Below, one piece after another: positions 7,149-24,743 of a stretch of DNA of 25,551 nucleotides (position 1 is the first letter of the stretch; each line of letters begins with the position of its first letter). A program made the position numbers and the translations under genes. The notes under the pieces are model-generated. The model was not told the DNA's origin. It worked only from the letters and a program-made list of their open reading frames with translations, and did not search any database. Source of the DNA: a virus; IMG/VR virus record IMGVR_UViG_3300030098_000021, positions 1 to 25,551 of that record; one strand, given 5' to 3'.

Positions 7149-9019
7149 TATCTTTTACCATCTGGTCTTATATCTAATCTTAAATCACCAAGTCTCCAAC
7201 CATAATCATTTGATGAATTAGATACTCTTATTGCACATTGCCTACTTCTAGCTCTTGTATTAGTAAATGTAGAAGCTGGTGTAACTGATACAGTAGATAA
7301 AGTAGATAAATCTTCTAATGGATAATTTCTACCTTTTATAGTTATAGTTACATCATCAGATGTAGATTGTTGGTCTCTAAATTCTACATCAGGTATTATT
7401 CTATTTACTGCTATAAATTTTTCACCATCAGGGTCTAAATCAAAATCACTTGATTCTATAAATGCAGTAAAATTACTACCATCGTCTCCATGACCTATTT
7501 CATGTGCAAAAAGAAAATTATTATTATCTGTACTACTATTTTTACTAGCAGCTATAGGATTATTTAATATTAATGCTTCATTCCAAGCTGTTCTAACAAA
7601 ATTATCTGATGTTGTTCCTATAGACCATACTTGTTCTAAATAATTATATAAAACATATCTATCTACTTCTGTGCTATTTTTAGAAGGATAAAACCATAAA
7701 ATTTCATTAGCAATATCATTTACAGCACCAAATATTTTATATTCTTGTTGTTTGTTTAAATCATTAAAAACATAATCTAATACAGTACATGGTAATCTTT
7801 GAGCACTACCTGAATAACTATAAAATCCACCACTATCCATAAAATAAACTTGATTATTAGCATTTACTGCTGCATTAGGTCCTATTAAAGATGGACCATT
7901 TGCAACTTCAGTAAATGAAAAAACAAATGGTGCACCTACAAATCTCATAGAAACTATACCTGCATCTGTCCAAATAAGTATTTCTTGTCTTGTTTGTAAA
8001 GCTCCTATAATTGTAGAACCCATGGATAGTTGAACTCCACCTGCTTGATTTGTTGCAGTTGGTGTCCAATCTGTAATACTTTCTACATCAGAAAATCTAA
8101 CTAATAGTGGGTCAATATCAGAAGAACCTATCGGGTTACAACCAAAAGCTATTGCGTGTTTATCTATATCAGAAATCATTATTTGTAATACTTTTGTAGG
8201 AACATCACTAGCACCAGCTAAACTAGTAGCATTTACTGCTCTTGTTGTTAAACCAGAAGATTCATCCCAATAAAATATACCACCAGCTCTTGCATTTAAT
8301 ACTGTATCATCACCAAAATTATCTATTGACCACAATCTTAATTGATTAGTAAAAGATAAATCAGTAGTAGCACCCCAAGTTCCTTCACCCCATGTACCTG
8401 AACCCCAACCAGTAGATTTAACATAAACATCTAATCCTGAATTTAACTGATAAACACCATCTGTTGCAGAGCCACCATTACCAGAATCGCTTGAATTTGC
8501 ATTTACAGTTGTACCTGAAGTATCTTTTGCACTTATTTCATAAGTATTAGCTCCAGTTACTAAACTAATTTGATATTCTTGATTTAAAACATCTGCAGTT
8601 ATATTACCACCTAAACTTACTGCACTAGAAAAAGTAACAAAATCACCATTTACAGCACCATGACTACTATCTGTTACAGTTATTATAGGTGTATCATCTT
8701 CTTTTTTTGCAAATGTAATAGAATTAGTGCTTGTTTTTCGAATAGGTGTTACATCGTAATAAACATTACCTTGTAATACATAAAATTTTTGATGAGTGCC
8801 TAAAGTTATATAATCAGTACCATCAGTTGCTTTATATGGATAAATTTTTCTACAAGTACCTATAAAACTACTTAAACTTTGTTTTTGCCAACCACCGATT
8901 CTTTCAGGTCTGCCTTTACGAAATCTAACTTTATCTGCATCAAACCAGCCACCTTCATTACTATAATTAGTACCTTCTCTATTTATACCTGGTCTAAATA
9001 CATATTTGGCTAATGGCAT
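7148..9019 (-). CDS. Tail nozzle/tubular protein (T7 gp12 or P22 gp10-like, 623 aa)
   Basis: The N-terminus MPLAKYVFRPGINREGTNY, then GGWFDADKVRFRKGRPERIG, is typical of podovirus tail nozzle/stabilisation proteins. The rest is a beta-rich protein with repeated four-stranded blade-like segments: W-rich GSGTWGEGTWGAT near 205-215, IIGALQTRQEILIWTDAGI near 338-356 and YVLYNYLEQVWS near 460-471. This fits the beta-propeller of T7 gp12 or P22 gp10. Residues about 100-190 look like an inserted beta domain (SHGAVNGDFVTFSS). The gene lies just after lysozyme and before the internal virion genes. Placement in the tail tube is well supported by family resemblance; the T7 versus P22 assignment is open. 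Confidence 0.7.
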   Translation of the reverse strand: MPLAKYVFRPGINREGTNYSNEGGWFDADKVRFRKGRPERIGGWQKQSLSSFIGTCRKIYPYKATDGTDYITLGTHQKFYVLQGNVYYDVTPIRKTSTNSITFAKKEDDTPIITVTDSSHGAVNGDFVTFSSAVSLGGNITADVLNQEYQISLVTGANTYEISAKDTSGTTVNANSSDSGNGGSATDGVYQLNSGLDVYVKSTGWGSGTWGEGTWGATTDLSFTNQLRLWSIDNFGDDTVLNARAGGIFYWDESSGLTTRAVNATSLAGASDVPTKVLQIMISDIDKHAIAFGCNPIGSSDIDPLLVRFSDVESITDWTPTATNQAGGVQLSMGSTIIGALQTRQEILIWTDAGIVSMRFVGAPFVFSFTEVANGPSLIGPNAAVNANNQVYFMDSGGFYSYSGSAQRLPCTVLDYVFNDLNKQQEYKIFGAVNDIANEILWFYPSKNSTEVDRYVLYNYLEQVWSIGTTSDNFVRTAWNEALILNNPIAASKNSSTDNNNFLFAHEIGHGDDGSNFTAFIESSDFDLDPDGEKFIAVNRIIPDVEFRDQQSTSDDVTITIKGRNYPLEDLSTLSTVSVTPASTFTNTRARSRQCAIRVSNSSNDYGWRLGDLRLDIRPDGKR

Positions 9020-9959: not shown

Positions 9960-11714
9960 TTAATTTATTGTATATATTTGTATTGGTTTTGTTTTACCTT
10001 TTACATATATACTTTTTAATTCTTTTAATATTATTTCAGAATTAAAATCTTTTGCATTAACTGTATTATATCCAATAACAATATCTTGACCAACTTCCTT
10101 AGTAGAACTTTCAAGTCTAGCAGCAAGGTTTACTGCATCACCTATAGCGGTATAATCAAATCTTGTTTCACTTCCCATATTACCTACAACAGCATATCCA
10201 GTATTAATACCTATTCCTATTTCAACACCTAAATCAGCTTTTTTAATATTTTCTTGTATTTCTTCAGCACATAACACAGCTAAAGTTTCATGGTTAGGTA
10301 AGTCAATTGGTGCGTTAAAAATAGCCATCATGGCATCACCAATGTATTTATCTACCATACCATTATATTTTTTAACTGCATCTGCTTGTATTGTTAAAGC
10401 CTTATTCATAATTTTAGTTACTTCTTCTGGCTCTAATTTTTCAGACATAGCAGTAAAGCCTCTTACATCTGTAAATAAAAAAGTGCAGTATCTTTTTTCA
10501 CCACCTAATACTAAAGAATCAGGATTATCTTGTAATTTTTTAACTTGTCTTGGGTCAAGATAATGTTCAAATTGTTTTTTAATTTGTTGTCTTAATTTGT
10601 ATTGTTGTCTAAATCTTAAATAAAAACCTATTGATGCAGTTATAAATTGTGAAATTAATGTCCAACTTACATCTATTAATATTCCACGCTGAATTAAATA
10701 ATGTCCAGAAAATATTGTTAAAAAGAATAATATACTGGTAAATGTTATTCCTAGCGTTATTCCAAAAATATTTACACATAACCAAACTAAAATTACTGTT
10801 ATCACCAGAATTAATAATTCAACTGCTAAATGCCAATCAGGAATATAAGGACTATCTTGTATTAAAATTGATTCTGCTAATGCTGCTTGTATTTTATGTG
10901 GTTCTAATAATCCAACAGGTGTTGCAATTTGTGGCATTACTCCATTAGCTGTAACCCCAATAAAAACAAATTTACCATTTACATTCATTTCTTGTAAGTC
11001 TGTTTGTTCAGTATCTACCCAACTAATCCATTTACGACCAAGACTATCTGTTTTTACTGGTGGTATTCCTCGTATTGATATTTCCTCTATACCATTATCA
11101 TTAGTTTTTATAATATAAGTTTTAACATTAAATAAAGCTTTGTATATTTGTGTGCCAAAACTAGGAATCCAATTATTATTAGGTGTTTTAACTAAAAGAG
11201 GTATTCTTCTTACAAGTTGGTCAACTTCTGTGGGAGCAATGGCTAAACCCTGCAATGTATTATTTTTAAGAGTGTTCAGGTTTTCCTTAACTCCCAAAGA
11301 TACTATACCACCATTATCTTCACCTTTCACTACTGTTCCTGTTGGTTTAGGATAATTACCTTTACCATCTTCAAACATAGCAATAACAGATGGTACATAT
11401 CCTAAAGACCTACCAAAATCTTCATCACCACCCATTCTATCTGCTTGTGGAAAAGATATAACCCAACCGACACCTAGAGCACCTTTACCAATAATTTCCA
11501 TTTGTATATCAGCTAATCTTTTTCTAGGTAATGGATAACCTCCTTCACGCTCTACATCTTCTTCTGTTATATTAAGTATTATAAAATTACCTGATGGTTC
11601 TGGTGTTTGTATAAATGTATCAAATACTTTTAGTTTTAATATTTCTGTAGGTGTTGACTGATATATTAATGGCAATAAAAGTATTATAAGTATAGGTAAT
11701 AATAATTTTTTCAT
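9960..11714 (-). CDS. CHASE2-domain class III adenylate/guanylate cyclase, membrane bound (584 aa)
   Basis: Complete CHASE2-3TM-cyclase architecture. Residues 1-18 form a membrane anchor; about 28-290 is a periplasmic CHASE2 sensor (ILNITEEDVEREGGYPLPRK, IGKGALGVGWVISF); three helices follow (about 298-316, 318-337, 345-365); a linker (KKQFEHYLDPRQ) leads to the cyclase domain (about 405-584). Catalytic residues are intact: metal ligands D416 (FTDVRGFT) and D460 (YIGDAMMAIF), purine-specificity pair K456/D520 typical of ATP-using enzymes, and transition-state N529 and R533 (AVNLAARLE). It should make cAMP in the cytoplasm in response to a periplasmic cue. It overlaps the FecR gene by 4 bases (ATGA). 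Such enzymes are normal bacterial sensors and unexpected in a lytic phage gene block. Confidence 0.93.
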   Translation of the reverse strand: MKKLLLPILIILLLPLIYQSTPTEILKLKVFDTFIQTPEPSGNFIILNITEEDVEREGGYPLPRKRLADIQMEIIGKGALGVGWVISFPQADRMGGDEDFGRSLGYVPSVIAMFEDGKGNYPKPTGTVVKGEDNGGIVSLGVKENLNTLKNNTLQGLAIAPTEVDQLVRRIPLLVKTPNNNWIPSFGTQIYKALFNVKTYIIKTNDNGIEEISIRGIPPVKTDSLGRKWISWVDTEQTDLQEMNVNGKFVFIGVTANGVMPQIATPVGLLEPHKIQAALAESILIQDSPYIPDWHLAVELLILVITVILVWLCVNIFGITLGITFTSILFFLTIFSGHYLIQRGILIDVSWTLISQFITASIGFYLRFRQQYKLRQQIKKQFEHYLDPRQVKKLQDNPDSLVLGGEKRYCTFLFTDVRGFTAMSEKLEPEEVTKIMNKALTIQADAVKKYNGMVDKYIGDAMMAIFNAPIDLPNHETLAVLCAEEIQENIKKADLGVEIGIGINTGYAVVGNMGSETRFDYTAIGDAVNLAARLESSTKEVGQDIVIGYNTVNAKDFNSEIILKELKSIYVKGKTKPIQIYTIN

Positions 11715-12826
11715 CCGCTACTTTGGTTAATTGTTATAACAGAGTCTCCTCCACCATTTATTTTTACTATATTAGATACTCCATCTTGTATCAAAATTAC
11801 TGTATAACCATTTCCTGAGTTTAAATCTACTTGTACTGATTCAGTTATTTTTCTACGCAAACTTATAACTTGTCCTGCTACTATTGTCGTTATTTGTGTA
11901 TCTGGGTCTTGACCAATTAAAGTACCAGAAATATTTACACTTGTGGCTAAAGCTAATTGGTCCTCTTCTTTTTCTATTGCTAAAACATCCAAAACATCTA
12001 ACAAATCTTCAAGAAAATTTACATCTAAATAATTAATATCTAATTCTGTAAATTCTAAATTATTATTTTCTAAAAAATCTTCTGCTAAATAATCTATATC
12101 TAAATCATTAAAATCTAATAAATTAATTGTTTTAGTTGTTGCTGTTTCTTCTTGTGCAATATCTTCTTCTTCAGGTGGTGTAACAATTAACATATTATCT
12201 ATAATATCTAAAGTTAAATCTAATATTACAGGTTTAGTAGGTGAACTCTCAAATACATCTACAGTAGTAGCTTGATATGGTTTATTAAGTAAAACACTTC
12301 CTGTAGCTGTAACCACCTCTATTTCGCCACTAGAAAGCCCTAGAGCATCTGGTAGCAAAATTATAAGGCTACGACCTAATTCATCTACTGTAGCTGTAAA
12401 ATCAGTTCCACGAATGGCTATATTTGCAGTAGGTGTTTTTAAAGATATATTTTGTTTATCTATACGATTTAAATTGCCAGTAATAAATCTTGCTGTACCG
12501 AGCCCAAATGTAAGAGCCATTTTTGCTTTACTTGGGTCAGGGTCATAGATATATTCATCTATTAAAAGCTGTGAGTGTTCAGTTAGCTTTACAGTTGAAT
12601 CATCTAAAAAAGTAATAGCCATACGACCATTTTTAGTTATAGCTTCATCATTGCTTTGTATAGCAAACTTTAAATTAGCTTCGTATGGTTTATCTCTTAC
12701 AATTTGTGCTGAACCATTTAGTTCAGATATATCTCCAATATCAGCAACTTGTGCTTGTGCCTTGGTCGTTTTGAATGACGCACACAGTACCACTATTGCC
12801 AATAGATATAATTTTGAGCCAGTCAT
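11711..12826 (-). CDS. Exported FecR-domain protein with acidic repeat and curlin-like C-terminus (371 aa)
   Basis: A Sec signal peptide (1-25, cleavage near AQA) is followed by a FecR domain (about 60-172): GRMAITFLDDSTVKLTEHS, then TPTANIAIRGTDFTATVD and GEIEV. Residues 217-288 are very acidic and internally repetitive (LDIDYLAEDFLE versus LDINYLDVNFLE). The last 30 residues carry IQDGVSNIVKI, which resembles a curlin strand-turn motif. The protein should be periplasmic or surface exposed. FecR proteins encoded next to CHASE2 cyclases are common in bacteria, so it is a plausible partner of the next gene. The start at 12826 is chosen because it supplies the signal peptide, although no good ribosome site is visible and it overlaps the curlin-like gene by 86 bases. 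Confidence 0.85.
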   Translation of the reverse strand: MTGSKLYLLAIVVLCASFKTTKAQAQVADIGDISELNGSAQIVRDKPYEANLKFAIQSNDEAITKNGRMAITFLDDSTVKLTEHSQLLIDEYIYDPDPSKAKMALTFGLGTARFITGNLNRIDKQNISLKTPTANIAIRGTDFTATVDELGRSLIILLPDALGLSSGEIEVVTATGSVLLNKPYQATTVDVFESSPTKPVILDLTLDIIDNMLIVTPPEEEDIAQEETATTKTINLLDFNDLDIDYLAEDFLENNNLEFTELDINYLDVNFLEDLLDVLDVLAIEKEEDQLALATSVNISGTLIGQDPDTQITTIVAGQVISLRRKITESVQVDLNSGNGYTVILIQDGVSNIVKINGGGDSVITINQSSG

Positions 12827-13457
12827 TATCTTGTGTACTCGATTGTGTAATATTAAATGTTCTACTATTACCTGTTTGGTCTAAATAAAAGTAACCACCT
12901 GCATAACCAGAACCTGTAAAGTTTAAAGTATTACTATCTCCATCAACATCAACATAAGAAGTACCACCATCATAATTTATGTCAAAGTCAAATGTATTAC
13001 CATCACCTTGTATAATCCAATCTAAATCAAGAGTTTCTGCTAAAGCACTTGTTCCATGGTCTAAAGTAAATGTATTAGTATTACCTGTAACATCAACATT
13101 ATAATTTGAATTATCAATACCATATGTATTAGTAGGGTCTCCTTGAATGGTAAAAGTATTACTATCGCCATCAAATTCAAAAAAGCCTGTTATAGTATCA
13201 CCAAGAATATCACCTAAAAATTTATTAGAATCACCAATTTGATTTATATCTAGTGTCATAGTTGTACCATCTAAATCTAAGGCAGTTAAACTACCTGCTG
13301 CAGAATTTAAACCACCAATAATATTTCCAGAACCAATTTGTTCTAAATCTATATTAGCTGTTGCACCTGACTGGTCAATATATATTTCGTTATCAGCCCC
13401 GTATGTTGTCAATGCAGTCAGCATTACAATCAGGCTTATTAATTTTAATTGTTTCAT
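12741..13457 (-). CDS. Curlin-like repeat protein, predicted secreted amyloid (238 aa)
   Basis: A signal peptide (1-20, cleavage near TYG-A) precedes about nine strand-turn units of curlin type, with hydrophobic alternating residues around Q/D-x-G-x-x-N: IDQSGATAN (27), LEQIGSGNII (38), INQIGDSNKF (71), FDGDSNTFTI (95), VTGNTNTFTL (123), IQGDGNTFDF (149), VDGDSNTLNF (171), LDQTGNSRTF (192), ISIGNSGTVC (217). Spacing is less regular than in CsgA, and no Gly/Asn-rich N22-like CsgG targeting segment is visible. Two cysteines (226, 238) end the protein. It directly follows csgF-csgG and is the obvious substrate of that pore. It could form surface fibres on the infected cell. Ribosome site AGGAAAAAG-like, in the csgG 3' end. 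Confidence 0.8.
   Translation of the reverse strand: MKQLKLISLIVMLTALTTYGADNEIYIDQSGATANIDLEQIGSGNIIGGLNSAAGSLTALDLDGTTMTLDINQIGDSNKFLGDILGDTITGFFEFDGDSNTFTIQGDPTNTYGIDNSNYNVDVTGNTNTFTLDHGTSALAETLDLDWIIQGDGNTFDFDINYDGGTSYVDVDGDSNTLNFTGSGYAGGYFYLDQTGNSRTFNITQSSTQDNDWLKIISIGNSGTVCVIQNDQGTSTSC
12777..13379 (-). repeat. Curlin-type strand-turn repeats (nine units)
   Basis: Degenerate protein-level repeats with core G-x-x-N-(T/I/K)-(F/L/I), the first residues of the cores lying near 27, 38, 71, 95, 123, 149, 171, 192 and 217 of the encoded protein. Distance between units varies from about 11 to 33 residues. The repeats are not conserved at the nucleotide level, indicating old duplication with selection on the amino-acid pattern. 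Confidence 0.7.
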
Positions 13458-14262
13458 CTTTTTCCTCCCAGAAACCTTTGTTATAACCTATTTTAACAAT
13501 TTGAAAAACAGCTTCTTCTATAGCTCTTTGTAGTGCTAATGTAGTAGATTCATTTTCTACATCTCCTGTTTCTATTTCTACAAGTTCTGTACCTGCTTCA
13601 ATAAATCTAAAAATATCTTGTGATTGTCCATAACTATAAATTTGTTTATTTACTAAGACATCAATTAATACTTCTCCTGTAGCTATAGAAACCATACGCA
13701 AAGCAACTGTTATATTATCTATACGATATTGTTTGCTACTACCAATACCTAAATATCTAGCACCAATACCACCACTTTTTATATTTGTATCATAACCAAT
13801 GACAGCACCTTCCATAAGTACACCTGCAAACAATAAAGGCATGATAGGTTTTTTACCATCTGTTTCTTCATTTTGTTCTCTAGCAGAGCGTATAAGTTGT
13901 CTTTCTTTAGTAAGGTTATCTAAACCTACTCTTTCAGCAACTCTAAAAAATTTACCATTTGAAGTATGTTTTAAAGTTCTAATTAATAAATGACTTGGTG
14001 CTTGTGTTATAGCAGAAGAAAACAAAGCAAATTCACTATTACTTTTTCTTTGACCTGTTTGGTCTGTAAAACTATTAGGATATACTGCTACAACTATAGG
14101 GACTTTAGGTTGTTTTACATTTAATAATTTTTCTGATTGTATTTGTAAAACACTAGGCAAAGTTTTACCTTGTTGCAAATTATTATCTACTGGAGCTAAA
14201 CTACAACTAGAAGCTAAAATCGCCAATAGGCAACTGAATTTCCGTAACATTTCCGTTTTCAT
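13393..14262 (-). CDS. csgG: CsgG family outer-membrane curli secretion pore lipoprotein (289 aa)
   Basis: Clear full-length homologue of curli transporter CsgG, which forms a nonameric outer-membrane pore for curlin subunits. A lipoprotein signal (LLAILASSC, lipid Cys C20) is followed by the core: VAVYPNSFTDQTGQ (58-71), FRVAERVGLDNLTKERQLIR (106-125), and the family hallmark GYDTNIKSGGIGARYLGIG (156-174), then VALRMVSIATGEVLI and FRFIEAGTE. The constriction Phe (F56 of mature E. coli CsgG) appears kept as F81, while the neighbouring Tyr/Asn are changed. An extra tail with C279 and C283 overlaps the next gene. An internal ATG at 14250 is an alternative start. It is preceded by csgF and followed by a curlin-like substrate. 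Confidence 0.95.
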   Translation of the reverse strand: MKTEMLRKFSCLLAILASSCSLAPVDNNLQQGKTLPSVLQIQSEKLLNVKQPKVPIVVAVYPNSFTDQTGQRKSNSEFALFSSAITQAPSHLLIRTLKHTSNGKFFRVAERVGLDNLTKERQLIRSAREQNEETDGKKPIMPLLFAGVLMEGAVIGYDTNIKSGGIGARYLGIGSSKQYRIDNITVALRMVSIATGEVLIDVLVNKQIYSYGQSQDIFRFIEAGTELVEIETGDVENESTTLALQRAIEEAVFQIVKIGYNKGFWEEKDETIKINKPDCNADCIDNIRG

Positions 14263-14707
14263 CTGTAATAATTAAAGTAATAATGCCATCTTTAATACTA
14301 TATTCGATGGTATTACCCTCTAATGTCAAAGTACCTTCTGTACTTGGCGTTTCTCCAAATAAATTTTCTACTAATTGTCTTGATAACTGTGCATAAATTC
14401 TTGATTCTAAATTACGAATAAATCTAGCTAATGTAGTATTTTCTTTGTCTCTTTCTAATTGTTCTTGAATAGCTTTTATTTCTTCTTTGATACTCATTTT
14501 GCGGTTAAATTCTTGATTCTCTATTGTTAAATAGTGTGAACTTGTACCAATACCGCTAAATGATGGATTTTTAAATTTATGAGTAATAGTATCTGCTTTT
14601 AAATTTATAACAATAATACCAAAAAATAATACAAAACCTATAAAAACTATACTTATTGTAAGTCTATATCTTTCTAATTCTTCTTTATCAATCTTTTCTT
14701 TGGTCAT
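14207..14707 (-). CDS. csgF: CsgF family curli assembly factor (166 aa)
   Basis: CsgF plugs into the CsgG beta-barrel and couples secretion to fibre nucleation. After a hydrophobic export segment (about 16-36, cleavage near LKA-D) the mature N-terminus DTITHKFKNPSFSGIG matches the CsgF peptide that inserts into CsgG (E. coli GTMTFQFRNPNFGGN). The C-terminal domain also fits: a helix ARFIRNLESRIYAQL, then beta segments with NTIEYSIKDGIITLIITDE and a TEIQLP strand. It is about 28 residues longer than E. coli CsgF, mostly because of a charged cytoplasmic leader (1-15) before the signal and a Glu/Lys-rich insert (70-92). It overlaps csgG by 56 bases. Confidence 0.9.
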   Translation of the reverse strand: MTKEKIDKEELERYRLTISIVFIGFVLFFGIIVINLKADTITHKFKNPSFSGIGTSSHYLTIENQEFNRKMSIKEEIKAIQEQLERDKENTTLARFIRNLESRIYAQLSRQLVENLFGETPSTEGTLTLEGNTIEYSIKDGIITLIITDENGNVTEIQLPIGDFSF

Positions 14708-15038
14708 CTCTATCTGCCTTTGCTATTTTATTACTATCTATTAGTTGTGGCACACCAAGAATAGTTTTAATTAAAGTGTCTTGTCTAATAATTTCATTAT
14801 CTAAACTACGAACTCTATCTATTAATGCTACTAAAATGCCATGTTGTGTATCAAGTTTTGTACCTAGTCTTTCTTCTAATGCTGATATTTGTCCTTCTAC
14901 TTTTTCATCAACAGTATCTAATTTAGTTTCCATACCATCAACAATACGCATTATTAATTTATATATAAACCAACCAAGACCAAGTGCAGCAGCAATAGGA
15001 AATCCAACTTCTTGTATAATAGTAACGGCTGATTCCAC
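14688..15038 (-). CDS. Single-TM coiled-coil phage membrane protein (116 aa)
   Basis: One N-terminal membrane helix (about 8-31, VGFPIAAALGLGWFIYKLI) is followed by a long charged coiled coil (36-95; METKLDTVDEKVEGQISALE) with IDRVRSLDNEIIRQD and a basic tail. I recall related small proteins with the QEVGFPIAAA start in marine cyanophages and pelagiphages. The arrangement resembles small holin-like or spanin-like membrane proteins, but no family is certain. It starts at the stop of the nuclease gene (one-base overlap) and overlaps csgF by 20 bases, so it is the first gene of the curli operon as read by translational coupling. Function unknown. Confidence 0.6.
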   Translation of the reverse strand: MESAVTIIQEVGFPIAAALGLGWFIYKLIMRIVDGMETKLDTVDEKVEGQISALEERLGTKLDTQHGILVALIDRVRSLDNEIIRQDTLIKTILGVPQLIDSNKIAKADRDDQRKD

Positions 15039-17654: not shown

Positions 17655-18374
17655 TTACTGCACCGCCTTGGGTGTTTTTGTTTGCACATCCCAACAATTT
17701 AAGTTAGATGCTATTGTTCGTCTTTCTCCTTCACCTTTGAAGGGATAAACCATGTGTTGTAGCCAAGAAGGAAAAATAAGTAACTTACCTATTTCTGGAG
17801 TTACAACAAATGATTGAGAAGGTATTAATCTTTTAGTATCAAATGCAGATACTTTACCATATTGAAAAGTTATACAGCCGTCAGAATGTCCACTTTCATT
17901 ATATAAAGAAAAACTATCTGTATTTGCGTGTGCTTCTGCTCCTATTTGTGGAGGTACTTTTGTCCATGCTGTGGTAGATATACCCATAATTGAATCTGTA
18001 ATATGGTCATGCATTGGATTGTAATCACCTTCGTAACTATGAACAGACCATGTTTCTTTTATTTCAACTTTTTTTAGACAGTCTATTTGATTGCCTGTTG
18101 CAATATATTGTTTGATATATTCTGCTGAAAGCATTGTAACAAAATTACAATAATCAAGCATACGAGAATCATTGTGTTCTAACAAAAGTTGTTCGCCTTT
18201 ATGCGTCTGTCCTACAAGATTATTAGAATGTGATTTTTTGTTTTTATCTTCTTTATATTCATCCATATAATCATTTACATCATCAATGATTTTATCTGGT
18301 ATTTTGGTTTCTAAAATATAAACAGATGGTAAAGCTCCCATTCTGAAATTAATTTGTACTTCTTTATCCTTCAA
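17655..18374 (-). CDS. 2OG-Fe(II) oxygenase-like phage protein (239 aa)
   Basis: The protein fits the putative 2OG-Fe(II) oxygenase family (PF13759-like) that is common in marine phages. Iron-binding candidates are H122/H124 in NPMHDHITDS and H207 in FPSWLQHMVYPF, with R218/R219 (GERRTIASNLN) as the 2-oxoglutarate anchor. The intervening region is a beta jelly-roll-like stretch (KLLIFPSW). The N-terminus with LETKIPDKIIDDVNDYMDE is the usual leading helix. Substrate is unknown; candidates include a residue of a structural protein or a nucleic-acid base. It overlaps the end of the tail-fibre gene by 11 bases, which hints that it may hydroxylate fibre or tail proteins. That link is inference. 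Confidence 0.75.
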   Translation of the reverse strand: MKDKEVQINFRMGALPSVYILETKIPDKIIDDVNDYMDEYKEDKNKKSHSNNLVGQTHKGEQLLLEHNDSRMLDYCNFVTMLSAEYIKQYIATGNQIDCLKKVEIKETWSVHSYEGDYNPMHDHITDSIMGISTTAWTKVPPQIGAEAHANTDSFSLYNESGHSDGCITFQYGKVSAFDTKRLIPSQSFVVTPEIGKLLIFPSWLQHMVYPFKGEGERRTIASNLNCWDVQTKTPKAVQ

Positions 18375-24046: not shown

Positions 24047-24337
24047 TTAACACTTCCACCTTCTACGAGCTTGTCTAATTCTTGAATTAGGGTCGTTTCT
24101 AGTTTTAGCTGAACTGCGTTTTAATTGTCCCAAAGACCTTGCACAATAAGATTTTCTGCGTTTTGCTGCCTTGCTACCTTTTTTTACTTTACCAGTAACA
24201 GCAGTTTTTAACTTAGAACCAGGATTTAACCTCCTATAGGCTTTTACACCAGCTTTAGTCATACCAGCACCAGACTTAGTAGGTCTAAAGTTTTTTTTAT
24301 TTCTAGGAGGCATTTTAGCCTGTTTTCTCATTGGCAT
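24047..24337 (-). CDS. DUF6321-like basic phage protein (96 aa)
   Basis: Contains FRPTKSGAGMTKAGVKAYRR followed by LNPGSKLKTAVTG, KGSKAAKRRKSYCARSLGQL and a C-terminal RIRQARRRWKC, the pattern of the small family I know as DUF6321. Two conserved-looking Cys (in SYCARS and at the C-terminus) stand out in an otherwise Lys/Arg-rich protein. Similar proteins occur in marine phages and some bacteria. DNA binding is likely from charge; function unestablished. Next to two further basic genes, forming a three-gene basic cluster. Confidence 0.7.
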   Translation of the reverse strand: MPMRKQAKMPPRNKKNFRPTKSGAGMTKAGVKAYRRLNPGSKLKTAVTGKVKKGSKAAKRRKSYCARSLGQLKRSSAKTRNDPNSRIRQARRRWKC

Positions 24338-24347
24338 AGTTATTTAG

Positions 24348-24743
24348 TTAAGATTTACCACCTCTGGCATAACCTTTGGTTCTTTTACCACCCATCATGC
24401 CACCTTTGGTCTTTTTGCCACCAGCCAAACCTAATACTTTTCTTCTAATAAATCTACCACCACGGAATCCTTGATTTTCCATTGGTTTATCATTAGTCAT
24501 TCTTGTATTGCCGCCAACACCGAAAGTTCTTTTAACAAATTCTTTGTTTTGTTGAACTCCAGATTCAACCATTCTAGGTTGCCTACCACCAGCCATACCG
24601 CCTTTAGTTCTTCTACCTCCAGCCATACCACCTTTAGTACGCTTACCGCCCATCATACCGCCTTTAGTACGCTTACCTCCAGCCATACCGCCTTTGGTTC
24701 TTTTACCTCCAGCCATTTTACCTTTTGGTTCTTTACCTGCCAT
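24348..24743 (-). CDS. GGKRTKGGMA-repeat basic protein (131 aa)
   Basis: The first 52 residues are almost entirely repeats of a 10-residue unit, KRTKGGMAGG with small changes, and the last 28 residues return to the same unit (GGKKTKGGMMGGKRTKG). A non-repetitive centre (about 52-103) has a mixed helix (QQNKEFVKRTFG) and EN/RGGRF. The composition (Gly, Lys, Met, Arg) suggests a disordered, cationic protein that could coat nucleic acid or form a phase-separated or virion-internal filler. I do not recognise a family. A ribosome site (AGAGGAA) precedes the ATG. The repeat is also present in DNA (see repeat entry). Confidence 0.6.
   Translation of the reverse strand: MAGKEPKGKMAGGKRTKGGMAGGKRTKGGMMGGKRTKGGMAGGRRTKGGMAGGRQPRMVESGVQQNKEFVKRTFGVGGNTRMTNDKPMENQGFRGGRFIRRKVLGLAGGKKTKGGMMGGKRTKGYARGGKS
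24588..24743 (-). repeat. 30-bp tandem repeat encoding GGKRTKGGMA units
   Basis: Five units in tandem, with spacing of 30 bases; cctttagtacgcttac occurs twice on the plus strand at 24631 and 24661. A further copy pair lies near 24351-24434 at the other end of the gene. Near-identity at DNA level points to recent expansion or continuing unit exchange, making copy number likely to vary between relatives. Confidence 0.8.

Follow-up and report, generated by a model that had tools for sequence, protein, structure and literature searches.

What would a phage do with a bacterial curli secretion pore, a curlin-type protein to pass through it and a sensor cyclase predicted to make cyclic AMP? The question is raised by a 25,551-base stretch of DNA (GC content 33%), hereafter the window, from a virus record of 26,279 bases (IMG/VR record IMGVR_UViG_3300030098_000021). 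An earlier note on the window had described five consecutive minus-strand genes at 9960–14707, encoding CsgF, CsgG, a curlin-like protein, a FecR-domain protein and a CHASE2 cyclase, and gene positions and Pfam matches agree with this description, the curlin call being weak in the window itself and backed by relatives and predicted fold. These five genes stand, but the span omitted a sixth gene, g116, and is better drawn up to 15038 so that g116 falls within the module. We consider it fairly probable that the locus is a phage type VIII (curli) secretion module which exports a curli-like fibre, with the FecR-CHASE2 pair as an envelope sensor.

Identity of the secretion genes

The lipoprotein outer-membrane secretion pore CsgG (13393–14262, on the minus strand like all six genes; lipobox read by eye) matches PF03783 with an E value of 1.1e-46, and a profile made from seven phage CsgG proteins finds the solved CsgG chains (E 2e-65). 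CsgF, the pore-associated curli factor (14207–14707), has an N-terminal hydrophobic segment followed by a conserved N-P-x-F region in the alignment and matches PF10614 (E 4.6e-18, 66.1 bits vs a cut-off of 25.8). Both identities, which had been read from hallmark segments, are thus confirmed by profile. A phmmer search with CsgF alone did not find the solved CsgF, its lone match being eL14 (E 0.61). Read by eye, the constriction of CsgG differs from that of E. coli. A CsgG match of 38.6% was also observed in a 1,499-base record named as a Salmonella phage (OR851715.1, 286–972), possibly host csgG DNA.

Four of the five core open reading frames (ORFs) lie above the Pfam curated cut-offs, with profile matches to CsgF, CsgG, FecR, CHASE2 and the cyclase, and the curlin ORF (12741–13457) is the sole exception. 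Its product is acidic (32 D/E vs 5 K/R), with a signal peptide recognised by eye and a predicted beta-solenoid fold. Curlin_rpt is matched by 11 of 17 members of its family at E ≤ 1 (best 8.6e-6), and the AlphaFold2 model (predicted local distance difference test, pLDDT, 77) resembles predicted viral proteins named “Curlin associated” in BFVD (E 1.1e-7, template modelling score 0.72). VIA-align 2 groups the model with beta-helix/beta-solenoid proteins (best 5awg_A, Z 16.9, root-mean-square deviation 4.1, 198 residues), a likeness of arrangement in a predicted structure that says nothing on function. Family membership and predicted fold point to a putative curlin substrate, and on these two comparisons a misread curlin gene was rejected. 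The nine repeats formerly ascribed to the protein were an overstatement: there are nine G-x-x-N motifs, one of them inside the signal peptide, and the other eight are unevenly spaced along the mature part, although their number exceeds that in shuffled sequences (8 vs a mean of 2.9, p about 0.003).

Conservation of the module and purifying selection

Gene order was surveyed in viral loci from two IMG/VR scans by CsgG similarity to two queries (best 80 of 305 and best 80 of 194), in a set that also includes the phages HTVC008M and Melnitz and seven contigs of metagenome-assembled genomes (MAGs). Genes were scored with profiles built from module proteins, in those loci with enough flanking sequence beside CsgG. 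The loci are related, selected by CsgG and non-independent (a single phage enters twice, as L082 and L085), hence the counts show order and not independent origins. CsgF was present in all 158 loci with room and the curlin gene in all 139, followed by g116 (150 of 152), FecR (110 of 112) and the cyclase (62 of 65). Only L172 and L173, which are bacterial curli loci from an Amylibacter MAG and an Ascidiaceihabitans MAG, were without g116 and FecR, and the cyclase was absent from L172, L153 and L165. The order recurs across phage loci, HTVC008M and Melnitz included, and a chance cluster was therefore rejected. Window CsgG shares 42% identity with that of HTVC008M and 37% with that of Melnitz, and the genomic sites of the modules differ between phages, hence it is the unit that is conserved and not its position. 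The phage-type module was also seen in L165–L171, contigs binned as Maricaulis, Neomarinimicrobiota, Flavobacteriaceae, Rhodobacteraceae and Pelagibacter MAGs, which are probably binned phage DNA.

All six module genes are under purifying selection. Median ratios of non-synonymous to synonymous substitution (dN/dS), obtained by comparing the window with at most 13 selected relatives (12 in the case of lysozyme and nuclease) with gene overlaps ignored, were 0.055 for g116, 0.056 for the curlin gene, 0.072 for CsgF, 0.087 for FecR, 0.116 for CsgG and 0.184 for the cyclase. Comparison genes gave 0.247 (lysozyme), 0.409 (tail protein) and 0.087 (the neighbouring nuclease, which is equally constrained). 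That the module consists of passenger genes without present function, as the missing cyclase of L153 and L165 might hint, is hardly credible given this constraint on every gene and the intact catalytic residues of the cyclase.

The strong constraint on the curlin gene also makes it an unlikely relic of a pore-only system, which bears on a proposal made for Melnitz, that the CsgG/CsgF pore now serves to time lysis, in the manner of a pinholin or a secretin, and that fibre formation has been lost. PMC9004378 argues for this from altered predicted structures, and a possible, sub-threshold holin and an endolysin do lie just downstream of the module in the window, as they do in many podovirus loci. 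However, a curlin gene with a dN/dS of 0.056 and present in 139 of 139 loci would be needless for a pore-only role, and the HTVC008M module adjoins an oppositely oriented tail gene. Melnitz is said to lack csgA/B (PMC9004378), but in the Melnitz-3 record as deposited the module carries annotations for FecR and for two proteins with curlin repeats (L083:8794–11588). We therefore regard lysis timing as unlikely. In the same record, the annotated start of Melnitz CsgF (L083:7465–7935) is at 7510; an in-frame ATG 45 nt further upstream extends the protein by a hydrophobic N-terminus.

The sixth gene, g116

The gene g116 (14688–15038) encodes 116 amino acids, with a predicted N-terminal transmembrane segment (a single hydrophobic stretch, residues 11–29) followed by a coiled-coil-like stretch recognised by eye. 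In the reverse direction, all 73 loci with room that were found through g116 contain CsgF or CsgG; these are relatives of ≥89% identity (the best 80 of 595, with seven too short left out and several on contigs already in the set), hence the result covers close relatives only and says nothing of distant ones. Copy number was counted in the 142 loci that contain both CsgF and CsgG and extend 1.5 kb beyond CsgF on its upstream side. A single g116, as in the window, is the rule among the 67 loci of the window’s kind, which were recognised by the nuclease or the holin-like gene of the window: 63 have one copy and four have two. The other 75 loci have two copies before CsgF (n = 62), one on each side of CsgF (n = 10), a single copy (n = 1) or none (n = 2, L172 and L173). 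The variant with g116 both before and after CsgF was seen in ten myophage-type loci (L134, L137–L144 and L146).

The leading module gene is labelled “histidine kinase” (HK) in PMC9599517. This gene is probably g116, judging by position, copy number and shortness and with the sequences themselves uncompared. Twenty g116 homologues match 26 Pfam families, and the 25 of these that were listed include no kinase family; HATPase_c was matched in none of 18 module-bearing records at E ≤ 1, with 14 of 14 controls positive. On these grounds we rejected the kinase label for g116, and we infer that the published one is wrong.

The FecR-CHASE2 cyclase pair

The FecR-domain protein (11711–12826; PF04773 E 1.7e-9, domain at residues 64–149) has a signal peptide by eye, hence it is probably periplasmic, and PF04773 is matched by all 19 aligned homologues. 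An impression that its C-terminus resembles curlin repeats was unsupported, Curlin_rpt not being among the seven families matched by the 19 homologues at E ≤ 5. The gene that follows (9960–11714) encodes a CHASE2 sensor (PF05226, E 4e-24) fused to a class III nucleotidyl cyclase of the adenylate type (PF00211, Guanylate_cyc, E 3.5e-19). Its catalytic residues had been noted as intact, and indeed D416, K456, D460 and R533 are kept in 78 of 78 aligned sequences, and D520 and N529 in 76 of 78, the window included. We take two of the Asp residues to bind metal, a Lys and an Asp to serve adenine recognition and the Asn-Arg pair to act on the transition state; by these residues the protein would be a class III adenylate cyclase. 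In L165 (2738–4353), FecR is kept without the cyclase and is directly followed by a holin-like gene.

FecR and CHASE2 genes also pair in bacteria. In a set of 115 alphaproteobacterial genomes there are 114 CHASE2 genes, 35 of which, spread over 24 genomes, have FecR no more than 3 kb away, with about 0.55 such cases expected by chance (a figure from rounded genome sizes with contig ends ignored). A CsgF match was found in one of these 24 genomes (G099), on a different contig (lists matched by eye), hence the pairing is independent of curli genes. CsgF is itself rare in the alphaproteobacteria, with matches in seven of 385 genomes, six of them above the cut-off, and in five 16-kb alphaproteobacterial CsgF regions searched with the module profiles CsgF and CsgG were present and FecR, cyclase and g116 were not found. 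The bacterial regions with CsgF and CsgG include L214 and L217. As csgF-csgG and FecR-CHASE2 occur separately in bacteria, the phage module looks like a curli secretion cassette and a FecR-CHASE2 sensor cassette joined together.

FecR is read as an iron (ferric citrate) regulator in PMC9599517. Neither FecI nor FecA was among the 19 window proteins scanned, and FecR is flanked by the curlin gene on one side and the CHASE2 cyclase on the other. By analogy with the bacterial pairs, this suggests that FecR may be a partner of the cyclase instead of an iron-citrate regulator.

A possible mechanism and its weaknesses

In a curli-like export module, CsgG would form the outer-membrane pore with CsgF at its mouth. 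The curlin-type protein would leave the cytoplasm by Sec, pass through CsgG and, perhaps at a late stage of infection, build up an amyloid-like beta-solenoid fibre on the infected cell. FecR and the CHASE2 cyclase could act as a periplasm-to-cytoplasm sensing pair that converts the state of the envelope or of secretion into cyclic AMP (cAMP), and g116 may be a dedicated membrane accessory and no kinase. Late expression is suggested by the position of the module in the window, co-oriented with and just upstream of the possible holin and the endolysin. A benefit to the phage, such as aggregation or superinfection exclusion, may follow.

Several observations weigh against this mechanism. The curlin ORF alone stays below the Curlin_rpt cut-off (E 0.021, 15.2 bits vs 20.7), and Foldseek returned no match of its model in the PDB at E ≤ 0.001. 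The AlphaFold2 model of FecR failed (pLDDT 40.8) and was uninterpretable. Late timing is weakened by the myophage copies of the module, which sit elsewhere, and Melnitz cultures showed no clumping (PMC9004378), with no fibre seen so far. No gate was identified, as CsgE was matched in none of 18 module-bearing records at E ≤ 1 (the window’s own 26,279-base record included; some may be fragments), with the control in E. coli above the cut-off. Finally, cNMP_binding was matched in none of 18 module-bearing phage records (17 distinct phages, the window’s own record excluded), hence the cAMP output is without an identified reader.

The CsgE result does not exclude a working system, since CsgE is termed not essential in PMC7029224. 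It does leave room for the view, proposed in PMC7029224 and PMC9599517, that CsgG is an open pore which brings nutrients or cofactors into the infected cell, since none of the 18 records yielded a match to CsgE and the pore may therefore be ungated. The conserved curlin and CsgF are left unexplained by such import, and we think it very unlikely.

The missing cAMP reader bears in turn on whether the product of the cyclase acts on a CRP-type receptor to change transcription in the host, on the model of curli control in gammaproteobacteria. The cyclase residues are intact and the host of the window’s phage may have CRP, but no cNMP_binding match was found in the phage records and, if the host is Pelagibacter, the domain is present in only five of 61 genomes of the genus of one Pelagibacter MAG, each time in an 870-amino-acid frame, the one frame inspected combining cNMP_binding with an acyltransferase domain and not being CRP. 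The genomes of this genus may be incomplete, the window’s phage may have another host and other cAMP receptors are possible, hence the route is disfavoured for Pelagibacter hosts only; overall we judge it quite unlikely.

The fibre-exporting module with its envelope sensor thus remains our preferred reading. A bolder version, which we offer tentatively and hold to be rather doubtful as a whole, is a two-part device in which a gateless curli line, with the mislabelled membrane coiled-coil protein g116, is wired to the FecR-CHASE2 sensor and the cAMP acts on a target other than CRP, which would let the phage monitor the export of its fibre or the envelope state, in a module spread over at least two podovirus replication types and myophages.

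Marine phages of two morphotypes keep this six-gene envelope module without a counterpart in Pelagibacter, the host of some of them; CsgG was found in one of the 61 genomes of the Pelagibacter genus, on a 3-kb phage-like contig. If fibres are made, cells that otherwise live free would become sticky on infection, and superinfection, aggregation and carbon flux would be affected. The absence of a kinase, FecR as a likely cyclase partner, a near-constant sixth gene and no identified cAMP reader narrow the targets for bench tests.

Genomic context and the phage

The nuclease and lysis neighbours reported earlier are in place, with an SNase gene beyond g116 on one side and an endolysin one gene away from the cyclase on the other. 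The gene between cyclase and endolysin has a sub-threshold holin match only (GTA_holin_3TM, E 0.05, 14.6 bits, cut-off 24.8). The FecR and cyclase genes overlap by 4 nt, and longer out-of-frame overlaps follow each other along the module at 14207–14262 (56 nt), 13393–13457 (65 nt) and 12741–12826 (86 nt). In each long overlap the final part of one gene, read in another frame, encodes the export signal of the gene that follows (CsgG, curlin and FecR), with starts being longest-ORF calls. Long overlaps are common among podovirus loci and smaller or absent in HTVC008M and Melnitz. Elsewhere in the window we observed a 2OG-Fe(II) oxygenase (17655–18374; PF13759, E 2.1e-14) and two very basic small proteins, one made of repeated G-G-K-R-T-K-G-G-M units (24348–24743) and one next to it matching DUF6321 (24047–24337, E 1.9e-11).

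The 623-amino-acid tail protein of the window is closest to that of phage DSL-LC04 (38.5%), followed by roseophages and others, and has 29–36% identity to those of HTVC023P, HTVC027P and 023Pt_psg01. A long module-bearing relative (G449, 62,745 bases) was compared with 50 kb each of HTVC023P, DSL-LC04 and CRP-901, and has 14, 12 and 16 ORFs in common with them, mostly virion genes as far as named. We thus dropped the assignment of the window’s phage to the HTVC023P type, as its tail protein is closest to DSL-LC04 and the virion genes of its relative are about equally near those of all three phages. From these comparisons the phage appears to be a podovirus-like relative of HTVC023P, with membership in that type unsupported.

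DNA polymerase is among the core genes given for HTVC023P-type phages (PMC9599517), and HTVC023P itself matches DNA_pol_A, hence we took the core polymerase to be of family A. Six of 14 long podovirus-like module records, which may be incomplete, have a DNA_pol_A match (G452, G453, G454, G456, G459 and G460), and eight have none (G449–G451, G455, G457, G458, G461 and G462). The former three of these eight (G449–G451) are near relatives of the window, whose own record is a fragment without a DNA polymerase. The module may therefore occupy more than one podovirus replication type.

Comparison with known systems

The earlier note had taken the five genes for what looks like a complete system, one that includes a dedicated substrate and a cyclase. 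Conserved order and purifying selection uphold the system, but its implied novelty does not stand, as PMC9599517 described CsgF, CsgG, CsgA/B, FecR and an adenylate cyclase in 2022 in nine podo-pelagiphages of the HTVC023P type and in myophages, with module expression seen in metatranscriptomes. In pelagimyophages the module was described in part in PMC7029224, and that of Melnitz in PMC9004378. Among them, these papers have proposed superinfection defence, aggregation, uptake and lysis control for the csg phage genes. The kind of module is already known, and the window adds a member and corrections to its description. Among the matches listed in open-licence literature we found no later phage study of the module and, by titles and abstract starts, none on g116, FecR-CHASE2 or a missing cAMP receptor in phages.

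The order in the window is that given in PMC9599517 for the HTVC023P-type type VIII secretion system, in which one or more small genes are followed by CsgF, CsgG, CsgA/B, FecR, in some cases a second CsgA/B, and adenylate cyclase, and the gene set described there likewise has no CsgE. The window differs in its single curlin gene, and the HK and ferric citrate labels used there are unsupported in it. HTVC008M (KC465899) and Melnitz (MZ577098) have g116, CsgF, CsgG, curlin, FecR and cyclase in common order with the window; unlike the window’s phage, both are myophages, with two copies of g116 and an extra, longer curlin-type gene between FecR and cyclase.

Bacterial curli operons, both E. coli csg and alphaproteobacterial csgF-csgG, have CsgF and CsgG in common with the phage module, and L172 and L173 also have curlin. 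By the module profiles, L172, L173 and the five 16-kb alphaproteobacterial CsgF regions possess no FecR, CHASE2 cyclase or g116, unlike the phage module, whereas E. coli has the CsgE for which the phage records gave no match. The sensor half resembles the FecR/CHASE2-cyclase clusters of alphaproteobacteria and of Campylobacterota, where FecR has been reported with CHASE2 cyclases (PMC9239204), in that a FecR-domain gene adjoins a CHASE2 cyclase. As described in PMC9239204, the Campylobacterota clusters add a phosphodiesterase and a TPR protein, neither of which was seen in the phage module, while the csg genes next to the pair are a feature of the phage module.

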